A DNA stretch of 40,872 nt from Thalassocella blandensis. GTDB taxonomy: Bacteria; Pseudomonadota; Gammaproteobacteria; Pseudomonadales; Cellvibrionaceae. Shown one piece after another: positions 15,601 through 40,872 of the stretch; positions within the stretch are counted from its first letter, which is position 1; each line of letters starts with the position of its first letter. The notes under the pieces were generated by a model. That model saw nothing but the letters and a program-made list of their open reading frames with translations, made no database searches and had not been told where the DNA came from. Made by a program: the position numbers and the translations under genes. The stretch lies in assembly GCA_945882995.1 (NCBI GenBank), contig CAMCXE010000008.1, positions 1 through 40,872 of the forward strand, given 5' to 3'.

Positions 15601-16212
15601 CTGCCGCAGGGGCAGTTGTTGTCCGCTTACTTAGCGCCCCATGAATTTGGCCTAAACCGCCCCGCCGACCTGCTTACCCCCAGCAACCCAGTGCCGCGGG
15701 TAGTTGGCAGCCTCATCCATTTAATACTCGCCGACATGGCTCAAATTGGCATGCCCCAATGGCGGCTAATCCCATGGGACCAACGCCGCCCTATCTGGCG
15801 CGCGCAGCTCACCACCGCTGGGTTACAGCTTCCCCAGTTGGACGCCGCTTGCAGCCTGTTAGAACACCAGTTGCAGTGCATCCTCGGCGATGCCCGCTTA
15901 AATGAATTGCTCAACAACCCCACACACTGTCGCCCTGAATACCCCATCAGCTGGGTGCAAAACCAGCGCCTGGCCCATTTGCGCGTGGATTTACTCTGGG
16001 AAAAACCCGGCGCCACACCTTGGCTCGTGGACTACAAAACCGCCATCCCCGACCCACAGCAAAACCTAGCGGCATTTTTAGCGAAGGAAAAAAGCGCCTA
16101 CAGCCAAACCATGCACAATTACCGGCAAGCGGTTATGGCCTTAGGTAGTCCCGAGTTGCGTATGGGGTTGTATTTTGTGGGGTTGGGGGAGTGGGTGGAG
16201 TATGGGGTCTAG
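12655..16212 (+). CDS. UvrD/AddA-type helicase with C-terminal RecB-like nuclease domain
   Basis: Superfamily 1A DNA helicase fused to a PD-(D/E)XK nuclease, as in AddA/RecB proteins that process double-strand ends. Motifs in order (numbered from 12655): Walker A APAGSGKTELL (Lys75), Ia AITFTRKAAAEMRERLL, II VDEFQDTSASQ (from residue 473), III FCVGDAMQSIYSFR, IV LDTNFRS, V MTIHKSKGLEFEVV, VI RLVYVAATRAKRH. The nuclease shows LRVDLLW near 1111 and WLVDYKTA (Asp1126, Lys1128). The frame is open from 12655, but the first 45 or so codons contain no ATG, and homologues begin shortly before ALDPTESF (residue 59). The only early starts are TTG 12655 and TTG 12682, both inside a MITE-like repeat. The true start is therefore unclear. 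No AddB-type partner is in the window. Confidence 0.88.
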   Translation: MGAKKLCNPLACHGVAPIFAIQQGFYPQNSPTYPPLNNLPEPAINNHLPNDAPARQRALDPTESFICEAPAGSGKTELLTQRILCLLARVTQPEAVLAITFTRKAAAEMRERLLHALQKGHGPEPSSPHARQTWQLARAVLAVDAQYQWQLLTNPNRLQLRTFDSLCARLTQALPLHSALGAQLRISDDPSSLYQSAVAEFLRSLDDEKPWAPALQQLLAHLDNQANKLAKLLQSLLQKRDAWLPLILDVQRHRQQQGHGLRDQLEAHLQQVATDQVALLQSLIPAVYTPALLMITAQAAQTLNRLGETSPICACADLDLTSTLPDASPEGLAAWRGLRALLLTKEGTWRKQVDKRSGFLVGENAAEKRLAKQRKEELLELIGCLALRPGLLDALVELDSLPANSYSDAQWQALEAIGQLLPIVVAYLHLEFSAKGEVDFIEIAQRARQALGDDDAPTDLALRLDHQIQHILVDEFQDTSASQYSLLRRLTEGWQPRDGRTLFCVGDAMQSIYSFRAADVGLFLYAKEQGLGHLPLQLLQLDTNFRSQAKVVDWVNRVFARAFPERNNFATGAVAFAPAVAFNPDLGEAGVVLHGFAGPDAREQEAQAVVALVQHQQADNPESDIAILVRNRSQGRLVMEALSSAGLRPLGVDMASLASHPVVQDLVSLACALLDPSDTVAWLAILRAPWAGLTLSDLLLIRQQPGAVVADQLHSLLALPSLPSSFSALAQQRLPSLARHLLRALHERQRKPLRLWLEGLWFDLGGPACVLDSRDLGSIERFWLCLEALQQGGQLPDRKRLEVAVAQLFAAAPPDANPKLQVMTIHKSKGLEFEVVILPGLDRGTRSSDSELILWQQRLSRSGDEQLILSALNLSKSSDDSIYQHLKHERSKRESYEVCRLVYVAATRAKRHLHLLAAVKHDAKQPNQLNTPKKGSALAALWPGVGLVWPVPAEPPSADEEGAGMPVLAPLQRLPAGWQLPSLPQGQLLSAYLAPHEFGLNRPADLLTPSNPVPRVVGSLIHLILADMAQIGMPQWRLIPWDQRRPIWRAQLTTAGLQLPQLDAACSLLEHQLQCILGDARLNELLNNPTHCRPEYPISWVQNQRLAHLRVDLLWEKPGATPWLVDYKTAIPDPQQNLAAFLAKEKSAYSQTMHNYRQAVMALGSPELRMGLYFVGLGEWVEYGV

Positions 16213-16329
16213 AAATCTTTGCTGAGCGGGTGAAATTGAGAGTGGGGCGCTCGCCGTTAGTGGGCGCGACATCAATGTCATTGTGTTAAGCGCGAAGCTG
16301 ATCTTTTGAGTGATTTTAAGCTTCTATTT

Positions 16330-16820
16330 CGCCCTCCTGGGCGAGTGACTTTTTCTTTCATGAAGGCCATCGTGGCCTTCACCCTTCGGGCAGCTCCGCT
16401 GTGGCAATTTGCTCCCAGCAAATTGCTGCGTGGCCAAAAAATTGCTACGAGCAATTTTTAATCGCGAAGCGATCCGCAGGATCAAGTGCAAGGATGCACT
16501 TGGTAAAGAAAAAGTCACCAAAAAGAAAGGCCACCCGACTTTTTGGTTTTTGCTGCGCAAAAATTCCCTCCCTCAAGCGCCATGGATGGCGCGAATGCAG
16601 AAATTGCAGGAGCAATTTTCTGCCGAGGCAATTTTGAAGGTCGCCGTGGCGTGAGAGGATTCGCCACATCCTTGTGGCTCTGCCCTTCGGGCTGCCTTCG
16701 GCATCAAAAATGGCAATCCTGCCATTTTTTCCTGTCCCGTCACGGCTCAAATGGACGTCCTGTCCATTTGCCCCTCAAAATCACCTCTCCACTCGGCCAA
16801 AAAACGGGCTGGTCCCGTTT
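16330..16820. repeat. Dense array of about 20 short hairpins, partly enclosed by a 14-bp stem
   Basis: This fills most of the 786-base gap between the helicase gene and DUF1348, and I see no credible gene in it. Perfect or near-perfect stems with 2-5 base loops follow one another. Loops are TCCT (16330-16343), TCG (16362-16380), TTC (16382-16390), TCC (16391-16401), CCC (16404-16426, 10-bp stem), ACG (16437-16459, 10-bp stem), GAA (16461-16473), GCA (16471-16483) and AGGA (16484-16501). An outer perfect 14-bp repeat, GTGACTTTTTCTTT at 16345-16358 with its complement at 16505-16518, encloses eight of them. Further stems: 16547-16563, 16577-16592, 16597-16623, 16663-16678, 16682-16692, 16693-16703, 16706-16729, 16748-16770 and 16802-16820. 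Similar intergenic hairpin clusters occur in other gammaproteobacteria, but I know no established function. Confidence 0.85.
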
Positions 16821-16998
16821 CGGCGGGATCGTGGTGGCGCCATTAAAATGTATTTGAGTGGGGCGAAAATCCATTGCTTAATGACATGGGCCTTCACACT
16901 CCTACCCCAATTCACTAGTACTAAGGCCGGTTTGGTTTAACCACCGACGAATGTGCCTCCGGAATGTGCCGCATGGGGCAGGGCTGCGCGCTTCTGCC

Positions 16999-17472
16999 CT
17001 ATAAACCCAGCTCACTCAACCCCGGGTAATCATTGGGCCTCGGCCCCTGTGCCCACAAAAATTTGCGTTGGGCGGCGGTTATGGCTAGGTCATTAATGCT
17101 GGCGTAGCGTTTTTGCATTAACCCCTGCTCGTCAAATTCCCAATTTTCGTTGCCGTAACTGCGCCACCATTGGCCGCTGGCGTCATGCCACTCGTAGGCA
17201 AACCGCACGGCTATACGATTATCCGTAAATGCCCACAATTCTTTGATTAGGCGATATTCGGATTCTGTAGCCCATTTGCGGGTGAGAAATTCCACAATCT
17301 GTGCGCGCCCGATGGGAAATTTATGGCGATTGCGCCACTGGCTGTCTGGGGTATAGGCCAGCGCCACCTTGTGCGGATCGCGATTGTTCCAGCCGTCTTC
17401 AGCGGCGCGTACCTTTTGTATGGCGGTGGCTTGGGTAAACGGTGGAAAAGGTGGGCGCGCTTCATGGCTCAT
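16999..17472 (-). CDS. DUF1348 / nuclear transport factor 2-like protein
   Basis: A 157-residue SnoaL/NTF2-like protein of the DUF1348 family. Conserved family stretches are visible: RPPFPPFT near the start, [45 protein letters not shown], and [12 protein letters not shown]. The fold is a cone-shaped alpha+beta barrel that binds small molecules; no enzymatic role has been fixed for this family. Starting at ATG 17472 (MSHEARPP) gives the usual family length; an upstream in-frame extension of 18 residues is unlikely. It is monocistronic as far as can be seen, downstream of argF on the same strand but 121 bases away. Confidence 0.9.
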
Positions 17473-17551
17473 GGGCTGGGTTCCTGTGTGAAGAATGGAA
17501 ACTTTGAATAGCAGGTTTCGCGCCATAACCGCCAGACTAAACTAGGGTCAA

Positions 17552-28347: not shown

Positions 28348-28722
28348 GGGGGCTTCTTGATTGGTGGGATTTTCGGGGTTAGCCATCATGTTCGCACGCT
28401 TTTCGCTATTCTCCCAAAATAAATTATTGTATCTTATTGAATTAATAGGCAATTTTGTTGTGGTACCTTAGGGGCAGAGCCTATCAAAACACGCTGAAAT
28501 TACAGCTTTTTGCGGTATAAGTTCGCAATCTGTTGCCTTTGATGTACTATTTGGCACAATTTTTTAGAATGGCTCAGACAGTGCGAAGTGGCAACAATAG
28601 AGCCACGTATTTTTTGCCATTTCGGCTGGCTGTGCGTATTTACACTGCACAGTATTTCCGCCTGTTTTGAAGACATATGCGTCCAGTACCTATATAAAAA
28701 ATGCCTTGCTACGGATAATTGC
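28348..28722. other. Upstream region of the restriction operon
   Basis: About 375 AT-rich bases between the IS4 fragment and the helicase gene. The helicase frame is open from GTG 28588, but that extension (Cys- and Phe-rich) does not look like part of the protein. Apart from a possible promoter at 28667-28696 I see nothing recognisable. Confidence 0.5.
28667..28696 (+). promoter_or_regulatory. Possible sigma70-type promoter of the restriction operon
   Basis: TTGAAG (28667-28672) and TATATA (28691-28696) are separated by 18 bases, and the start codon ATG 28723 is 27 bases on. Each hexamer has two mismatches to consensus, so this is only a candidate. Confidence 0.3.
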
Positions 28723-31700
28723 ATGAAGCTGATCGACAACATTAATACCCTGCTAGGTGATGACCTCAAAGCTACGCTTACCTTTGGCTCCAAGCTCAAA
28801 ATAGCAGCATCCTGCTTTTCTATTTATGCCTACGAGGCGTTAAAGAATGAACTAGAAAATATAGAGTCATTGGAATTTATATTCACCTCGCCCACATTTG
28901 TACCAGAACAAGCGACCGATAAAATTCGTAAAGAAAAACGTGAATTTTTCATACCAAAAACTGGCCGTGAACGTAATTTGTATGGTTCGGAATTTGAAAT
29001 ACACCTGCGCAACAAATTAACGCAACGCGCAATTGCTCGCGAGTGCGCACAGTGGATGCGCAACAAAGCCGTGTTTCGCTCTAACAACACTCAAGCACCT
29101 ATGCAACAATTTGCCTGTGTAGAGGCGGCGCAGCAAGCTGCGGGTACGGAAGAAAAACAGCAAGCCGCTTATATGCCTTTACATGGTTTTACAGCGGTTG
29201 ATTTGGGGTATCAGCAAGGCAATGCCGTGTCGAATATGGTCAACCGAATAGAAGACCCAACGTTTACCGCCACCTATTTGCAGCTATTCAATCACATTTG
29301 GAGTGACCCTAATAAGTTGTGCGATGTAACCGAAGCAATTTGCGAGCACATAGAAACTATTTACCAAGAAAACTCACCTGAGCGCGTTTATTTTTTAATG
29401 CTCTACAATATTTTTAACGAATTTCTTGAACAATTAGATGATGATGTTTTGCCCAATGACCGTACCGGCTACCAAGACACGCTCATCTGGAACAAGCTTT
29501 TCAATTTTCAAAAAGATGGCGCTACCGGCATCATCAACAAACTTGAAACCTACAATGGTTGCATTCTTGCCGATAGCGTGGGCTTAGGAAAAACATTTAC
29601 CGCCTTAGCCGTGATTAAATATTACGAATTGCGCAACCGCTCCGTGTTATTGCTATGCCCCAAAAAGTTGGCCGACAACTGGCTCAACTACAATCGCAAT
29701 TTAAAAACCAATATTTTTGCCAAAGACCGTTTTAATTACGATGTGCTTTGCCACACAGATTTAGATCGCACCAGTGGCGAATCTTTTGGCACACCGCTTA
29801 ATCGCATTAATTGGGGTAATTATGATTTAGTGGTGATTGACGAGTCGCATAACTTTCGCAATAACGATGCAGTAAAAGATCGTGAAACGCGTTATCACAA
29901 ACTCATGAACAAAGTGATACGTGCCGGCGTAAAAACCAAAGTACTCATGCTCTCGGCCACCCCGGTAAATAATCGCTTTAGCGATTTACGCAACCAGCTG
30001 GCGCTAGCCTATGAAGGCGACTCTAAAAACCTTACCAACAAATTGCGCACCGGAAAAACGGTAGAAGATATTTTTCGTAACGCACAAACTTCGTTCAACG
30101 CTTGGGCAAAATTGCCACCCGAAAACCGCACCGCTAAGGCGATATTAGAATCCTTAGAATTCGATTTTTTTGAATTGCTCGATAGCGTCACCATTGCGCG
30201 TTCACGCAAACATATTCAAACGTTTTACGATACCTCTGAAATAGGCGACTTCCCTGTGCGCCGCAAACCACTCTCGTTTCACTGCCCTCTAACGCAGCGT
30301 ACCGATGTGATGAGCTTGAATGAAATTTTCAACCAACTCAGTTTACTTAAGCTCGCGGTTTATGCACCCATTAGTTACATATTGCCCAGTCGCCTCAAAA
30401 AATATGAAGAGCTTTACGATACCGAAGTAGAAGGCGGGCGCAGTAAATTTAAACAAGTAGACCGAGAACGCAGTTTAGTAGCGTTAATGACCACCAATTT
30501 ACTCAAGCGTTTAGAAAGTTCGGTAGAAGCGTTTCGTATTACGCTGCGCAATTTACACAACAACCATGCCGCCGTTATTAGCAGCATTGATGCATTTTAT
30601 GAAAACAGCGGCGTAACCGAAGTGGCGAGTTTGGTAGAGGCCATGGCTGCACTAGAAGCGGATGATGATGAACTGCCCGCATTTCAGGAGATGGAGATTG
30701 GTAACAAAATAAAAATTAAATTGATGGATATGGATTTGCCCTCATGGCGACAAGATCTAACCGTGGACATGCTCATCATTGCCGAGTTGTTAGCCTCCAT
30801 GAATAAAATCACACCCACTGACGACACCAAATTACAGCACCTTAAAGGGCATATTTTTAATAAAATCGATAACCCAATAAACCTCGGCAACAAAAAAGCC
30901 ATCATCTTTACTGCCTTTGCCGATACCGCTAATTATTTGTACGACAACATTGCGCTAGAGTTAAAACAAAGCCGAGGCATAGACACCGGCAAAGTAACGG
31001 GTAGCGATGCACCCAAAACCACCATTAAAACCAAACGCAATAATTATGACTTTCAAGAAGTGCTCACACTGTTTTCACCGCGCTCCAAAGAAAAGGCCAT
31101 CATTCTGCCTGATGAACTCGCTGAAATAGATTTACTGATCGGTACAGATTGCATTTCAGAAGGGCAAAATTTGCAAGATTGTGATTACCTCATTAATTAC
31201 GATATTCACTGGAACCCCGTGCGCATTATTCAGCGCTTTGGTCGTATTGATCGCATTGGTTCGCCCAACAAAAGTATTCAGTTGGTGAACTATTGGCCGG
31301 ATATTTCGTTGGATGAATACATCAACCTCAAAGAGCGTGTAGAAAGCCGCATGACCATTGTGGATGTAACCGCAACCGGCGACGACAACGTACTCAGCGC
31401 GCAAGCTAACGATGTTTCTTATCGCAAAGAACAGTTGCAGCGGCTACAAGAAGAAGTGATTGAACTAGAAGATTTAAAAACCGGTGTATCCATTACCGAT
31501 TTAGGCCTAAACGAATTTCGCATGGATTTACTCAACTACGTAAAAACCCACGGCGAACCCACAAACTTGCCCAATGGCCTACACGCCGTAGTGCCCGCAC
31601 GCGAAGCCTTAGGTTTAAAACCCGGTGCCATATTTGCCTTAAAAAATATCAACAACAGCCTAAACATCGACCAGCAAAATCGCCTACACCCGTTTTACTT

Positions 31701-32058
31701 GGTCTATATAGGTTGCGATGGCGAAGTCATAGCCAACCACATTGAAGTTAAGCGCCTATTAGACCTAGTGCGCACCAGCTGCAAAGGCCAAGATGCACCC
31801 ATCAACGATATTTGCCGCATATTTAACCAGCAAACTCACGAAGGCCGCGACATGGGCGCTTATTCAGAACTATTAAGCCAAGCCATACGCTCCATGATAG
31901 AAGTGAAAGCCGAAAAAGACATCGATAGCCTTTTCAGTGGCGGCGGTACCACTGCGCTACTAAATAGCATCAATGGTTTGGACGATTTTGAGCTGATTGC
32001 GTTTATTGTCGTGCAAGCGCCAGCGGCAGAAACCACAACACAGCAAGGTGTGCAGTAA
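28723..32058 (+). CDS. SNF2/HepA-type helicase of the Type III-associated operon
   Basis: A 1111-residue superfamily 2 helicase. The N-terminal 250 or so residues resemble the PLD-like region seen in related defence helicases, but I see no HxKxxxxD motif, so nuclease activity is unlikely. Helicase motifs: I SVGLGKTFTAL (about 285), II VIDESHNFRN (DESH, about 373), III LMLSATPVNNR, V IGTDCISEGQNLQDCD, VI QRFGRIDRIGSPN (about 836). A long C-terminal region follows with no clear nuclease motif. ATG 28723 is preferred, with ACGGA nearby, over the open frame upstream. It overlaps the next gene by one base (TAATG), showing tight coupling. Likely role: DNA translocation or remodelling in defence (inference). 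Confidence 0.88.
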   Translation: MKLIDNINTLLGDDLKATLTFGSKLKIAASCFSIYAYEALKNELENIESLEFIFTSPTFVPEQATDKIRKEKREFFIPKTGRERNLYGSEFEIHLRNKLTQRAIARECAQWMRNKAVFRSNNTQAPMQQFACVEAAQQAAGTEEKQQAAYMPLHGFTAVDLGYQQGNAVSNMVNRIEDPTFTATYLQLFNHIWSDPNKLCDVTEAICEHIETIYQENSPERVYFLMLYNIFNEFLEQLDDDVLPNDRTGYQDTLIWNKLFNFQKDGATGIINKLETYNGCILADSVGLGKTFTALAVIKYYELRNRSVLLLCPKKLADNWLNYNRNLKTNIFAKDRFNYDVLCHTDLDRTSGESFGTPLNRINWGNYDLVVIDESHNFRNNDAVKDRETRYHKLMNKVIRAGVKTKVLMLSATPVNNRFSDLRNQLALAYEGDSKNLTNKLRTGKTVEDIFRNAQTSFNAWAKLPPENRTAKAILESLEFDFFELLDSVTIARSRKHIQTFYDTSEIGDFPVRRKPLSFHCPLTQRTDVMSLNEIFNQLSLLKLAVYAPISYILPSRLKKYEELYDTEVEGGRSKFKQVDRERSLVALMTTNLLKRLESSVEAFRITLRNLHNNHAAVISSIDAFYENSGVTEVASLVEAMAALEADDDELPAFQEMEIGNKIKIKLMDMDLPSWRQDLTVDMLIIAELLASMNKITPTDDTKLQHLKGHIFNKIDNPINLGNKKAIIFTAFADTANYLYDNIALELKQSRGIDTGKVTGSDAPKTTIKTKRNNYDFQEVLTLFSPRSKEKAIILPDELAEIDLLIGTDCISEGQNLQDCDYLINYDIHWNPVRIIQRFGRIDRIGSPNKSIQLVNYWPDISLDEYINLKERVESRMTIVDVTATGDDNVLSAQANDVSYRKEQLQRLQEEVIELEDLKTGVSITDLGLNEFRMDLLNYVKTHGEPTNLPNGLHAVVPAREALGLKPGAIFALKNINNSLNIDQQNRLHPFYLVYIGCDGEVIANHIEVKRLLDLVRTSCKGQDAPINDICRIFNQQTHEGRDMGAYSELLSQAIRSMIEVKAEKDIDSLFSGGGTTALLNSINGLDDFELIAFIVVQAPAAETTTQQGVQ

Positions 32059-32786
32059 TGTTGTTTGCTTACCCTCCGGCGAGCGCTTATGGCCGCGTAT
32101 TACCCAAAACCAAAATTTATGAATTTGGCGCACCCAGCAGTGCCATCAAGGCACTATTTGTGCAGCAAGTTGAACAAATTGTGTGGCAATACAAACTCGC
32201 GCCCAGCACCACCAATTTGCCAGCCACCCTTGCGGTGCCCGAAATTCAAATTTTCACCATCCACTTAAAACCCCATGTGCAAGAACTACATGAAGAGGTT
32301 TTACGCTGCATAGATAAGGCAATACCCTTGCCGATTTTGTTTGAGTTGCGCACAGTCTGCACCAACAACCCCAGCAGCCCTGAAGCCCGCAACACCGCTA
32401 ACACAAACACTAAGCAGGGCGATCAGGTTAAAATCACCGCCGCCTACAAACGCCCAAGTGAGGCAGGCTCAAAGCAATGGGTGCTCAGCCACTACCTAAG
32501 CTCAGCATGGCAAGCCGCAGATGCGGCAAAGCAACCATTACCCGTGGCCTTAAATTTAGCCAGCTTGTATCAGCAACTTTTATTGCCGCTTGCGTCACAC
32601 GCACTGCGTAAAAGCGAAAGCTTACAAACGTTTATGGAACGGCTAGTAGTAATATCCATTGCTGAACGCGAATTACAAAAGCTAAACGGCGCATTAAAAA
32701 AAGAAAAACAATTTAACCGCAAGGTGGGTATAAACACGCAAATACGCGCCCTGCAACACAGCCTTGCACAACTGCTTGGCGAATAG
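32058..32786 (+). CDS. DUF4391 domain-containing protein
   Basis: A 242-residue protein that fits the DUF4391 family: the start LFAYPPASAYGRVLPKTKIYEF, the EQIVWQYKLAPSTTNLPAT stretch, then IDKAIPLPILFEL and a KITAAYKRPSE segment near the middle. The C-terminus (ERELQKLNGALKKEKQFNRK) is strongly helical and probably a coiled coil. DUF4391 proteins are usually seen beside Type III-like mod and res genes with a SNF2-type helicase, as here. The biochemical role is unknown; bridging the helicase to the Mod-Res complex is one guess. ATG 32058 overlaps the preceding stop codon. Confidence 0.85.
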   Translation: MLFAYPPASAYGRVLPKTKIYEFGAPSSAIKALFVQQVEQIVWQYKLAPSTTNLPATLAVPEIQIFTIHLKPHVQELHEEVLRCIDKAIPLPILFELRTVCTNNPSSPEARNTANTNTKQGDQVKITAAYKRPSEAGSKQWVLSHYLSSAWQAADAAKQPLPVALNLASLYQQLLLPLASHALRKSESLQTFMERLVVISIAERELQKLNGALKKEKQFNRKVGINTQIRALQHSLAQLLGE

Positions 32787-32820
32787 ATAACAACACAAAA
32801 TTTAAGAAAAGGTTTGCCCC

Positions 32821-34776
32821 ATGGAAAAGCTAAAAATGCACAGCCAAAACCTAACCGACAGCAACATTCAGCGCATTCGCGAACTGTTTCCAAATTGTGT
32901 AACTGAAGCACAAGCGGCCAACGGCACGCTCAAGTTTGCGGTAGATTTTGATCAGCTGCGCCAAGAACTTAGCGACCATATTGTGGAAGGCCCACAAGAG
33001 CGCTATCACTTAAATTGGCCAGGGAAACGCGAAGCGCTACTCACCGCCAATGCACCCATCGCCAAAACCCTGCGACCTTGCCGCGAGGAAAGTGTGGATT
33101 TTGATACCACACAAAATTTGTTTATTGAAGGTGATAATTTAGATGCGTTAAAGCTGTTGCAAGAAACCTATCTTGGTAAAGTGAAAATGATTTATATCGA
33201 CCCGCCGTACAACACGGGTAACGATTTTATTTATGAAGATGATTTTGCAGAAAACTCTGAAGAATTTCTGAAGCGCTCAAATCAAAAGGATGATGAAGGG
33301 AACCGGTTGGTTGCGAATAACGAATCCAATGGCAGGTTTCATTCGGATTGGTTGAGTATGATTTACTCAAGAATGAAATTGGCGAAAAGCTTACTTCATG
33401 ATGAAGGTGTAATTTTTATTAGTATTGACGATGGCGAATTATCAAATTTAATAAAAATATGTGATGAGGTTTTTGGTGCAAACAATTTTGTATCTAGTAT
33501 TTGTTGGAAAAAAAGATCATCTCCTGATGCTAGAGCTACTATTGGCAGCATTCATGACACCATTGTTTGTTACGTAAAAAACAATTTGGTTATTAAAAAT
33601 GCTATCTCGAAAATGCCTCTTAGTGAAAAAAGAAAGCAGGCTTTTACTAATCCAGATAACGATTCAAGGGGAGCTTGGGCGTCTGTTGATATGACTGGCA
33701 TGACCGGCCGAGCTACCAAAGATCAGTATTTCGAAGTTGAATTACCTAGTGGCAGAAAAGTTTTTCCACCTGAGGGCCGCTCATGGGGTATTGCAGCGGC
33801 AACATATGTGGAATTAAAAAATGATAATAGAATTTGGTTTGGCTCTCATGGCGATAATGTACCTCGTATAAAAAGATTTCTGTCTGAGTCGGACGGGCAG
33901 GTTGTTCCTAGCATATGGGATTCAGAGGACTCTGGAAGTAACGATGAGGCAACAAAAGAAGTCTTAGAGTTATTTAAAACACCTACAGTTTTTGACACTC
34001 CAAAACCTACCAAACTTATTAAAAAAATGATTCAAATTGCTACAAAAATCGATAAAGAATATTTAGTTTTAGACTTTTTCGGAGGTTCAGCAACAACCGC
34101 CCACGCAGTAATGCAACTCAACGCAGAAGACAACGGCAACCGTAAATTCATCATGGTGCAGCTACCTGAAATTTGCGATGAAAAATCAGAAGCATTCAAA
34201 GCGGGTTATAAAAATATCGCTGAAATTTCCAAAGAAAGAATTCGCCGTGCCGGAACAAAAATAAAAGCCGAAATAGAACAAGCAAAATTAAAATTACTGG
34301 AAAACCCGAATCAAGATTTATTAGCAAGCGCTTCAGCAAGTGAACCCGCCAGCGATTGGCAGCTTGATGTGGGCTTTCGCGTATTGAAAATCGACAGCTC
34401 TAACATGGCCGATGTGTATTACTCGCCCGACGAGATAAAACAAGACATGTTTGCCGCGCAAGTGGACAACATCAAACCCGGCCGCAATAACCCACACGAT
34501 TTATTATTTCAAGTCTTGCTTGATTGGGGCGTAGAACTTACCTTGCCTATTCGCAGCCAAACCCTGCACGACAAAACCGTTTTGTTTGTGGATGAAAACG
34601 CACTTATCGCCTGTTTTGATAGCGGCATCAGCGAAGCCTTGGTCACCGAACTCGCACACCACAAACCGCTGCGCGTGGTATTCCGCGACAACGGTTTTGA
34701 ATCTGATTCGGTAAAAATAAACGTCGAACAAATCTTTAAACAACTCTCACCCATTACCGACGTGAAAGTCATTTAA
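32821..34776 (+). CDS. mod: Type III restriction-modification methyltransferase (Mod)
   Basis: A 651-residue beta-class adenine-N6 DNA methyltransferase. FIEGDNLDALKLLQETYLGK is followed by catalytic motif IV DPPYNTG (from Asp127). The SAM-binding motif I DFFGGSATTAHAV comes later (from Asp418), the order expected for Type III Mod. Between them lies the target recognition region (about residues 150-415). This middle part is much more AT-rich than its flanks: sampled 60-base windows give 30-37 per cent GC against 55 per cent near 33001 and 43 per cent near 34561, as if exchanged by recombination. ATG 32821 follows AAAAGG. The specificity cannot be read from sequence. Mod both modifies host DNA and supplies sequence recognition for Res. 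Confidence 0.95.
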   Translation: MEKLKMHSQNLTDSNIQRIRELFPNCVTEAQAANGTLKFAVDFDQLRQELSDHIVEGPQERYHLNWPGKREALLTANAPIAKTLRPCREESVDFDTTQNLFIEGDNLDALKLLQETYLGKVKMIYIDPPYNTGNDFIYEDDFAENSEEFLKRSNQKDDEGNRLVANNESNGRFHSDWLSMIYSRMKLAKSLLHDEGVIFISIDDGELSNLIKICDEVFGANNFVSSICWKKRSSPDARATIGSIHDTIVCYVKNNLVIKNAISKMPLSEKRKQAFTNPDNDSRGAWASVDMTGMTGRATKDQYFEVELPSGRKVFPPEGRSWGIAAATYVELKNDNRIWFGSHGDNVPRIKRFLSESDGQVVPSIWDSEDSGSNDEATKEVLELFKTPTVFDTPKPTKLIKKMIQIATKIDKEYLVLDFFGGSATTAHAVMQLNAEDNGNRKFIMVQLPEICDEKSEAFKAGYKNIAEISKERIRRAGTKIKAEIEQAKLKLLENPNQDLLASASASEPASDWQLDVGFRVLKIDSSNMADVYYSPDEIKQDMFAAQVDNIKPGRNNPHDLLFQVLLDWGVELTLPIRSQTLHDKTVLFVDENALIACFDSGISEALVTELAHHKPLRVVFRDNGFESDSVKINVEQIFKQLSPITDVKVI

Positions 34777-34792
34777 GGAATAGGGCGCGCAC

Positions 34793-37700
34793 ATGAAATT
34801 AAAATTTAAAGTTCAACCCTACCAAACTAACGCGGTTGATTCAGTGGTGGATGTTTTTGCAGGCCAAGTTCCCAGCGCAGGTTTTGTTTACCGGATAGAC
34901 CCCGGCATGGCGCCAGCCGATCACCAAGGCATGCGCCAAGCCGCACTCGGTGAAAAAGACGGTTTTAAAAATGCGGACATTCAATTAAGCGCGGCCAAGT
35001 TACTCGAAAACATTCATGCCATTCAGCGCCGCCAAAATTTACCCTTGTCTGAAAAGCTGATCGACAAAACCGGCACAAGCATCAACCTTGATATTGAAAT
35101 GGAAACCGGCACCGGCAAAACCTACTGCTACATAAAATCCATCTTCGAAATGAATAAGCGTTACGGCTGGAGCAAATTTATTATTATGGTGCCGAGCATT
35201 GCCATTCGCGAAGGTGTTGCTAAATCACTGGAAATTACCGCCGAACATTTCACCGAAAGTTACCATAAAAAAGCGCGCTTTTTTATTTACAACTCCAAGC
35301 GCTTGCATGAGCTGGAAAGTTTTTCATCTGACGCGGGCATTAATGTGATGATTATTAATATCCAAGCATTTGCTGCTGCGGGTAAAGATAATCGCCGTAT
35401 TTATGAAGAGCTAGACGATTTTCAATCGCGTCGCCCCATTGACGTTATCAGCAGCAATCGCCCTATTATCATCTTAGATGAACCGCAAAAAATGGAAGGA
35501 CCTGCAACACTAACTGCCTTGCCAAAATTTAACCCTTTAATGATTTTGCGTTATTCCGCCACCCACAAAACCACCCACAATAAAATCCACCGCTTAGACG
35601 CCTTGGATGCCTACAATCAAAAGCTGGTGAAAAAAATTGCCGTGCGCGGTATTAGCGTAAAAGGTTTGGCAGGCACCAATGCTTATTTGTATTTGGAGTC
35701 TATCGAGGTTTCTAAAAAAGCACCGGTAGCGCGCATTGAAATTGAAATGCAACTTAAAACCGGCGCCATAGTGCGTAAGCTGTTACGTTTAAGTGCGGGC
35801 GATAATTTATACGCAGCATCCAATGAGCTAGATCAATACCGTGACTTTATCGTTTCGCAAATTGATTACACGCAAGATTCCGTTGAGTTCACCAACGGCC
35901 ACAAACTGATTGCCGGTGAAGCCACGGGCGATATTACTGAGGCCACCATTCGCCGCATTCAAATTCGCGAAACCATTAAAGCGCACATAGAAAAAGAAAA
36001 ACAATTATTCGCACAAGGCATAAAAGTGCTATCGCTGTTTTTTATCGATGAAGTTGCAAAGTATCGCGATTACAGCCAAGAAAATGCCAACGGCGAATAC
36101 GCCACCATCTTTGAAGAAGAATATCAACAAATCAAACAAGAATATTTAAGTGAACTTGAGCTAGACAACGTAGCCTATCGCGACTATTTACGCCGCGACT
36201 CTGCCTCGAAAGTTCACGAAGGTTATTTTGCCATTGATAAAAATAAAAAAATGGCTAACCCCAGCGTAAAAGCACGCGGTGAAGACGCGGGCTTATCTGA
36301 CGATGTGGATGCCTACGATTTAATTCTAAAAAATAAAGAGCGGCTTTTATCCACCGATGAACCCGTGCGGTTTATTTTTTCGCATTCAGCACTACGCGAA
36401 GGTTGGGACAACCCTAATGTGTTTGTAATGTGTATGCTAAAACACAGCGACAACACCTTGTCGCGCCGTCAAGAAGTAGGCCGTGGTTTGCGTTTGTCGG
36501 TCAATAAAGATGGCGACCGTATGGATCACCCCGCCACAGTGCATGAAATAAATGTGCTAACCGTGGTGGCCAGCGAAAGCTACAAAGATTTTGTAACTAA
36601 CTTGCAGCGCGAAATGAGTGACTCTTTATCGGCGAGGCCAAAACAAGCCAGCAAAGAATATTTTGCTGGCAAGGTATTAAAAACCGCCAACGGCGATGTA
36701 ACCGTCACTGATGATATGGCTACCGATATTGAATTCTATTTAATCCAAAATGGCTATGTGGATAAAAAACGTAACATCACCGACAAATATCACGAACACC
36801 ACAAAGAAAGCACCCTCGCTGAATTGCCAAGCGAACTGGCACCCTACAGCGCTGAAATTATTAAATTAATTAATGGCGTGTTTAGCGAAGCGCAATTAGA
36901 TATGATGGTTGATGATCGCCGCCCTAAAAAGAACCCGCTAAACGCTAACTTTGATAAAAAAGAGTTCCAAGAATTATGGAACCGCATTAACAAAAAAGTT
37001 GTATACAAAGTGGACTTTGATTCAGCTGAGCTGGTGAGAAAAAGTATTTCCGCATTAGATTCGTTACGTGTTACGCCGCTGCAATATACCGTGCAAACCG
37101 GTATTCAAAACACAACTATATCCGATTCAGATTTAAAACAGGGCGATAGCTTCAAACTGAAAAAAACCACTACCGACACTCACAACGCCTCCATTCATTC
37201 TGCGGTGCGTTATGATCTGCTGGCAAAACTTGGCGATAATGCAAAGCTAACACGCAGCACCGTTGCCGCCATCTTAACCGGCATAACGCCTGCGATATTT
37301 GCACAATTCAAACTAAACCCAGAACATTTTATCGCTGAAGCTTCGCGCATTATCAACGAACAAAAAGCCACTATGGTGATTGAAAGTTTGCACTATGACG
37401 AGATTGAAGGTGAATACCATGTGGATATTTTCACCGCCAACCAAAGCAAGCAAGACTTCAGCAACGCCAGCCAAAAACTCAATAACCACATTTACGATTA
37501 CGCCATTACCGACTCAAAAGTCGAACGCGCTTTTGTAACCGAATTAGATACCAGCACCGAAGTTGTCGTTTACGCAAAGTTACCCAAAGGGTTTTTAATT
37601 CCCACGCCCGTGGGCGACTACAACCCCGATTGGGCGATCACCTTTAAAGAAGGCACGGTACAGCATATTTATTTTGTCGCCGAAACCAAAGGCACCATGT

Positions 37701-37864
37701 CAACCATGGAGCTCCGCGAAGTCGAGAAAACAAAAATTCAGTGCGCGAGTAAATTCTTCCATGCAATTAACCAAAAAATTACCCACGAAAAAGTAAAATA
37801 TGACGTGGTGACGGATTTTGGAAAGCTTATGGAAGTAGTGGGGTTAAAAGCGGCGCTGCAATAA
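34793..37864 (+). CDS. res: Type III restriction endonuclease subunit (Res)
   Basis: A 1023-residue SF2 helicase-nuclease. Walker A is [11 protein letters not shown] (Lys109), the DEAD-box equivalent is DEPQK (from Asp229), and motif V/VI sequences are [15 protein letters not shown] and [13 protein letters not shown]. The C-terminal PD-(D/E)XK nuclease shows NPDWA (Asp946) and VAETKG (Glu964, Lys966), the usual Type III Res pattern. All key residues are present and the length is normal, so it should be active. It starts 16 bases after mod. ATP-driven movement from an unmodified site followed by cleavage is established for the family. Confidence 0.95.
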
Positions 37865-40275: not shown

Positions 40276-40387
40276 TGGTTTGAGCGAGGGGGTTCGAGCT
40301 ATTGTCCAGCGAACTCCCTTGCATCCAGAAATCCCTCCCCAGCCCTCCCCTTGACAAGGTGAGGGAGCAACACGTAACCCGCACCAA

Positions 40388-40464
40388 CCGTAGGGCGCAC
40401 TTCAGTGCGCCGCTGTGGGTGTGTCGGAGTTTCCCAGGCGGCGCGCCCAGGCGACGCCCTACGG
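40388..40464. repeat. Short palindromic element with CCGTAGGGCG ends
   Basis: A 77-base element with perfect 10-bp inverted ends, CCGTAGGGCG (40388-40397) and CGCCCTACGG (40455-40464). An inner hairpin has GGCGCAC (40394-40400) and GTGCGCC (40405-40411) around a TTCA loop. Its form is that of a small non-coding mobile element or REP-like unit, of the type widespread in proteobacteria. Confidence 0.75.
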
Positions 40465-40584
40465 AGAATGGTTATTTTGATGCGGGTTACCCTTATTGCT
40501 AGGCGCCGCATGGATGCAGGAAATAGAGCGACGCAGGAGGCAGAACCGGACGATGGCGGGCGAGAATGAAAAAACCTAAATCCC

Positions 40585-40872
40585 CCTAGCCCCCTTTTAC
40601 AAAGGGGGGGATGACTCCCTTCTTGTTGCAAAGCAAGGCGCAACCCCTCCCTTTGAAAAAGGGAGGGCTGGGGAGGGATTTTTGGGCAAGCGAAAATTAC
40701 TTGCAAAAATAGCTCGCAACCCTCAACTGAATGACATTGCCCTAGCCCCCTTTTACAAAGGGGGAATGACTCCCTTCTTGTTGCAAAGCGACGCGCAACA
40801 CCCTCCCTTTGAAAAAGGGAGGGCTGGGGAGGGATTTTTGGGCAAGCGAAAATTACTTGCAAAAATAGCTCG
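40585..40872. repeat. Two 132-bp direct repeats, 156 bases apart, reaching the window end
   Basis: Units 40585-40716 and 40741-40872 are nearly identical, separated by 24 bases. Each contains the hairpin CCCCCTTTTACAAAGGGGG and a second one, CCCTCCCTTTGAAAAAGGGA with GGG following. A related CCCTCCCCAGCCCTCCCC segment occurs inverted at about 40330. The array may go on past the window. No gene is seen in 40276-40872. Confidence 0.88.

Follow-up and report, generated by a model that had tools for sequence, protein, structure and literature searches.

The hairpin cluster at positions 16330-16820 of the window (the whole 40,872-nucleotide stretch of Thalassocella blandensis DNA that we analyzed) forms the inside of a non-autonomous MITE of the IS4 type, whose framework consists of hairpins. 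At fixed points of this frame, some copies carry compact multi-hairpin modules and others do not, and the frame sequence stays intact. The most regular part of the cluster, a wheel of hairpins, consists of two such modules (quartets) in a mirror-image layout on either side of the original loop of a frame hairpin. The modules fall into two families, Type A and Type B, which are dispersed in their own right and also occur outside this MITE. We consider it probable that hairpin modules with a preference for loops spread separately into the IS4-type frame and were reshuffled by exchange between MITE copies. The features of the window copy are as follows:

16273-16889, plus strand: MITE copy of 617 bp, comprising four hairpin modules added to the bare 357-bp form (from the TIR pair and alignment to a 358-bp base copy)
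16273-16290, plus strand: left TIR, CAATGTCATTGTGTTAAG, with 2 mismatches to CAATGTCATTAAGTTAAG
16345-16358, plus strand: outer 14-bp stem of the frame hairpin, 5' arm
16359-16427, minus strand: left wheel quartet, an inverted Type-B four-hairpin module (69-bp insertion at base 85; core match 16358-16403)
16428-16435, plus strand: GCGTGGCC, loop of the frame hairpin in bare copies, retained mid-wheel (compared with bare copies such as L125, L101, and L127)
16436-16504, plus strand: right wheel quartet, with Type-B hairpin order (69-bp insertion at base 94)
16505-16518, plus strand: outer 14-bp stem of the frame hairpin, 3' arm
16575-16624, minus strand: Type-A double-hairpin module (covariance model R1, 73.5 bits, E 3e-21; 49-bp insertion at base 163)
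16657-16729, minus strand: second Type-B module, 73 bp (covariance model R2, 51.5 bits, E 1.6e-21; insertion at base 197)
16748-16770, plus strand: hairpin CAAATGGAC-GTCCT-GTCCATTTG, its loop empty in this copy
16872-16889, minus strand: right TIR, degenerate, with 4 mismatches

The original prediction described about 20 consecutive hairpins, eight of them enclosed by a 14-bp stem, in a pattern too regular for chance. The cluster is real, but the number was slightly high: we counted 16 perfect, non-overlapping hairpins with stems of at least 4 bp and loops of 3-5 bases in 16330-16820 (mean 6.1 and maximum 11 in 300 dinucleotide shuffles), and 13 when stems of at least 5 bp were required (shuffle mean 2.05, maximum 6), a count that upholds the claim of non-randomness. 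The bin containing the wheel is the peak of the whole window for such hairpins, with 10 of them where 491-nt bins average 1.7. The flanking 14-bp inverted repeat is exact, and the array of eight lies within it, although one hairpin (CCC-TTC-GGG) has a stem of only 3 bp and another (GATCCGCAGGATC) shares 3 bases with its neighbor. Both strands fold well beyond shuffles, with RNA z-scores for 16330-16860 of -10.3 (plus strand) and -9.2 (minus strand) and a z-score of -9.8 for single-stranded DNA at 16330-16530; in the minimum-energy structure the 14-bp stem closes a multi-branched wheel, as had been anticipated. The segment 16345-16518 shows 67% identity when compared with its reverse complement. 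It had been proposed as the unit; its outer stem is as described, but the true unit is the larger element at 16273-16889.

This element lies between convergent genes for a RecB-like helicase (ending at 16212) and a DUF1348 protein (16999-17526, minus strand). Across the genome, the TIR pattern CAATGTCATTAAGTTAAG has 247 matches at up to 3 mismatches, compared to a single match when the pattern is reversed. The MITE ends also occur on L091, a 1407-bp IS whose 18-bp TIR is identical to that of many MITE copies; its transposase, of 421 aa, matches the NF033592 IS4 family (E 6e-59). Target-site duplications of 10 bp flank six sister copies (L094, L095, L097, L098, L125, and L129). Because the MITE shares its ends with this IS, we infer that an IS4-type transposase moved the MITE as a whole. 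The window copy is probably old, since its ends are degenerate and no target-site duplication was found around it.

We compared about 50 MITE copies, with a bare 358-bp base copy as the reference. Twenty of the 50 have the bare form of about 357 bp, in which the outer hairpin carries a plain loop, and the 50 copies display 18 module combinations. The extra blocks occur at fixed points of the base copy (69-bp quartets at 85 and 94, others at 115, 163, 197, and 224), and no base-copy sequence has been lost at these sites. All four combinations of presence and absence were observed for nine of 10 module pairs. Insertions at site 224 measure 48, 96, and 192 bp, that is, one, two, and four times a nested 48-bp unit, and nested modules elsewhere give insertions of 49+47, 51+49, and 69+47 bp. 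The CAAATGGAC-GTCCT-GTCCATTTG loop holds Type A in other copies, either once or nested up to four times, and the modules of the window MITE face both orientations. Because the repeat is seen both with and without its inserts, the suggestion of a nest of hairpin insertions proves right; the idea of a movable block applies to the whole MITE, whereas the wheel alone recurs only as a part of it. Nor is the wheel confined to one locus, as its motif is found in 27 distinct sequences in the genome.

The outer-stem motif has 116 genomic matches at up to 2 mismatches, compared to 12 for a reversed control, and it often takes the form of a plain hairpin with a six-base loop. The left quartet matches the Type-B model R2 (57.1 bits, E 4e-24); because R2 gives no match on the right quartet, that quartet is provisionally assigned to Type B by its hairpin order only. 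In 23 copies, 95.4% of the wheel-stem cells are paired (at most 48% when the alignment is slid), and 16 double-change cells in 5 pairs indicate modest covariation. Conserved wheel stems are allowed by either model, insertion into hairpin loops or template switching. An AU test (p 0.075) does not reject a wheel that arose once and then recombined, so the wheel need not reflect two separate insertions; the tree of MITE copies is poorly resolved and does not establish a single origin either. The frame hairpin GTNACTTTTCTTTG-N6-CAAAGAAAAGTNAC itself is found in 22 of 274 genomes of the class, with paired changes at the base of its stem (GTTAC/GTAAC, GGTAC/GTACC, and GATAC/GTATC).

Type A is a double hairpin of about 49 bp (consensus GRC...GGTC/CTT) in which the loops and the linker are conserved and the stems compensate. 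The loops contain invariant bases and are its most conserved part. Stem covariation, raised as a diagnostic in the original prediction and weak in the wheel, is strong here: 11 of 17 pairs are altered on both sides, and 91.1% of pairs are maintained vs 71.4% after shuffling. By covariance model, 46 of the 61 family (Cellvibrionaceae) genomes and 65 of 274 across the class contain Type A, and a pattern scan located it in Microbulbifer, Thalassolituus, Methylobacter, Shewanella, Marinobacter, Kangiella, Bowmanella, and others. Type B, of about 70 bp with four hairpins, occurs in 36 of 58 relatives, including as head-to-tail triples. Type A nests in its own loop at GCTCC^TGC. In Methylotuvimicrobium buryatense, an unrelated MITE bears Type A in a hairpin loop as a single element, as two or three tandem units, or in nested form, where GCTCC^TGC is once more the position of the inner element. 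In Pleionea mediterranea (L351), Type A occupies the loop of a hairpin resembling the frame hairpin of the window, and at L167 it interrupts a Type-B hairpin, the R2 match spanning the inserted Type A. For the modules, we found neither a constant target duplication nor a carrier enzyme. A search for carriers gave two viral contigs and one plasmid record, with none in E. coli, and a role for phages or plasmids in carrying the modules is not evident. In several genera, Type A sits within another frame that recurs, GGACxGT...GGCxGC-(Type A)-GCxGCC...CGAGCCTACAGGGATGTATTCACGGCGTGTCC (L312, L316, L327, L360, L367, and similar loci); this GGACxGT...CGAGCCTACAGGGATGTATTCACGGCGTGTCC frame may be a further dispersed palindrome family.

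Hairpin loops are a preferred site of insertion. When a perfect stem of at least 7 bp was required at both insertion edges, 15 of 172 insertions lay in such tight loops, compared to 0.7 after permutation (at most 4 in 100 permutations), an approximately twenty-fold enrichment. By minimum-energy folding, 34% of insertions fell in a hairpin loop vs 18%, and testing 93 copies for flank pairing (30-nt window) gave a weak signal. Within the fold of the base copy, sites 85, 94, 197, and 224 are in an apical loop or no more than 2 bases from one (22% of positions qualify); the remaining two of the six sites, 115 and 163, are not apical loops. The majority of Type-A insertions outside MITEs are not within a detectable hairpin loop. 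Because most insertions lack such a stem, loops are a preference rather than a rule. A broad regular expression for nested insertions was discarded as evidence of nesting, its matches being mostly due to chance.

Insertion of the modules into single-stranded hairpin loops is our best inference from these data. The IS transposase that shares the MITE ends would copy the whole MITE, and the modules would spread by a separate activity acting on single-stranded or extruded DNA, one that would favor hairpin loops and, for self-nesting, GCTCC^TGC. Exchange between MITE copies would subsequently reshuffle the modules. The earlier reading of the cluster as a single-stranded DNA substrate for a transposase may hold. 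The main rival, to which we assign a limited but real chance, is replication error: the fork would stall at palindromes, and neighboring hairpins would be copied into loops through template switching or slippage, with stems repaired until perfectly palindromic. No mobilizing enzyme would then be required, and exchange between MITE copies would spread the product. Consistent with replication error, palindromy is kept on both strands and in both orientations, the number of tandem units varies between near-identical copies, one locus (L018) shows tandem growth of the GGGAAGCGCA type, and the modules are strongly assorted among MITE copies. However, Type A of the same length and with the same loops recurs at unrelated sites in distant orders, for which local slippage is inadequate, and its loops are the best conserved part even though palindrome repair would not preserve them.

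We think it unlikely that the modules are functional RNA elements under selection, for example CsrA/RsmA-binding hairpins (loop GGA) or stabilizers and terminators 3' of stable RNAs. The covarying stems with conserved loops would suit such a role, as would the fact that most hairpin loops read TCC or GGA. So would their neighborhood: a stable RNA gene (tRNA, 5S, 23S, or tmRNA) lies within 300 bp of 12 of 28 best-per-genome Type-A loci, a count that best-hit selection may bias, and within about 410 bp of 8 of 11 Type-B loci, compared to a chance proximity of about 1% by a rough estimate from assumed gene numbers. Such proximity is much less common among lower-scoring loci, where at least 6 of 80 lie no more than 200 bp away. 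Against function, orientation is variable, and the modules of the window face both ways within one element. Each module has GGA on one strand and module orientation is mixed; we read 10 of 13 Type-A modules near stable RNA genes as TCC-sense, whereas CsrA would need GGA. An Rfam scan of the window and related loci at the gathering score left the modules unmatched and returned only tRNA, rRNA, tmRNA, and GOLLD, with no match in the window. A promoter search found none, and terminator-like sites (a GC stem plus a T-run) number 1 vs 2.3 expected by chance, in line with the earlier statement that the cluster does not look like a terminator. Because the modules lack an Rfam match and face both orientations, the suggestion of a structured RNA is left without support.

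Two further observations concern stable RNA loci. At L134/L166 (G034:C1:2755469), Type A lies within a 23S-5S rRNA spacer. In tRNA arrays with GOLLD RNA, at L137/L161 (G007:C1, about 4264000) and L181 (G059:C53), Type A and B-like hairpins are inside tRNA-like sequence. Interruption of a tRNA at L137 and L181 was considered and rejected; because ARAGORN recovers no tRNA there, even from the joined flanks, we call these tRNA-like sequences relics only.

Mobilization as REP/REPIN-type elements by RAYT (Y1 HUH) transposases is very improbable: although such elements are likewise small, clustered or paired palindromic repeats of Gammaproteobacteria, one genome with 25 Type-A copies (G005) has zero Y1_Tnp, another with 121 matches (G059) has one Y1 fragment, and none of 23 Y1 loci examined has a significant Type-A match. 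Since no Y1/RAYT gene accompanies the modules, we rejected such an enzyme as their mobilizer and regard its involvement as unlikely. Tagged REPs are defined by a GTAG or CGTC tag at the stem foot (PMC3733652), which Type A does not have. Our modules resemble REPs, BIMEs, and REPINs in being extragenic, clustered, mosaic palindromes of variable copy number; they differ in having neither this tag nor a linked RAYT, as the view that they are not ordinary REPs implied, and in forming two- or four-hairpin units that nest in their own loops.

MITEs and hairpin repeats are both already known kinds. As in IS4-derived MITEs, the present element is short, shares its inverted ends with an IS in the same genome, and has 10-bp duplications in several copies; unlike them, its interior is a nested-palindrome frame enlarged by separate hairpin modules, and its length ranges from about 357 bp to more than 700 bp. 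The SDR5 repeats of Nostoc are very small mobile repeats and, to our knowledge, have no known enzyme; the modules are similar in both respects, the comparison being by description only. Tiny dispersed double-hairpin elements occur in fungal mitochondrial DNA. Sponge mitochondrial DNA contains RHEs, tiny dispersed units of 1-3 hairpins in intergenic, rRNA, and some coding sequence, with conserved stems and variable loops (PMC2800124). The likeness, dispersed two-hairpin units of tens of base pairs, is an analogy of layout only: Type A, unlike the sponge RHEs, has conserved loops and covarying stems and, unlike the mitochondrial double-hairpin elements, is bacterial and class-wide.

A search of the open-access literature by sequence string or topic (subscription literature lay outside it) revealed nothing that describes a double hairpin with fixed loops and self-nesting. 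Tentatively, Type A (and B) could be an undescribed, class-wide minimal mobile element of 49-75 bp, made of fixed-loop covarying hairpins that enter single-stranded loops, including their own. If so, palindromes would grow into nested trees within MITEs and beside tRNA, 5S, and tmRNA genes. The modules offer a concrete, countable system for the open question of how tiny, gene-less palindromic repeats spread in bacteria. As the same 49-bp double hairpin sits in MITEs of different orders with the same nesting position, its mode of insertion could be tested in a cultured methanotroph. A caution follows for candidate structured RNAs proposed from covariation near tRNA and rRNA genes, which may be mobile DNA.

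Elsewhere in the window, another MITE, distinct from the first but with TIRs of the same family, is located at 40280-40872 (TIR 40722-40739, minus strand). It again has nested palindromes and matches Type A weakly at 40503-40541; after the MITE comes part of its own end, repeated in tandem. The region 28588-37864 encodes an SNF2/DEAD-type helicase and then the N6_N4 methylase (32821-34776) and Res subunit (34793-37864) of a Type III restriction-modification pair.
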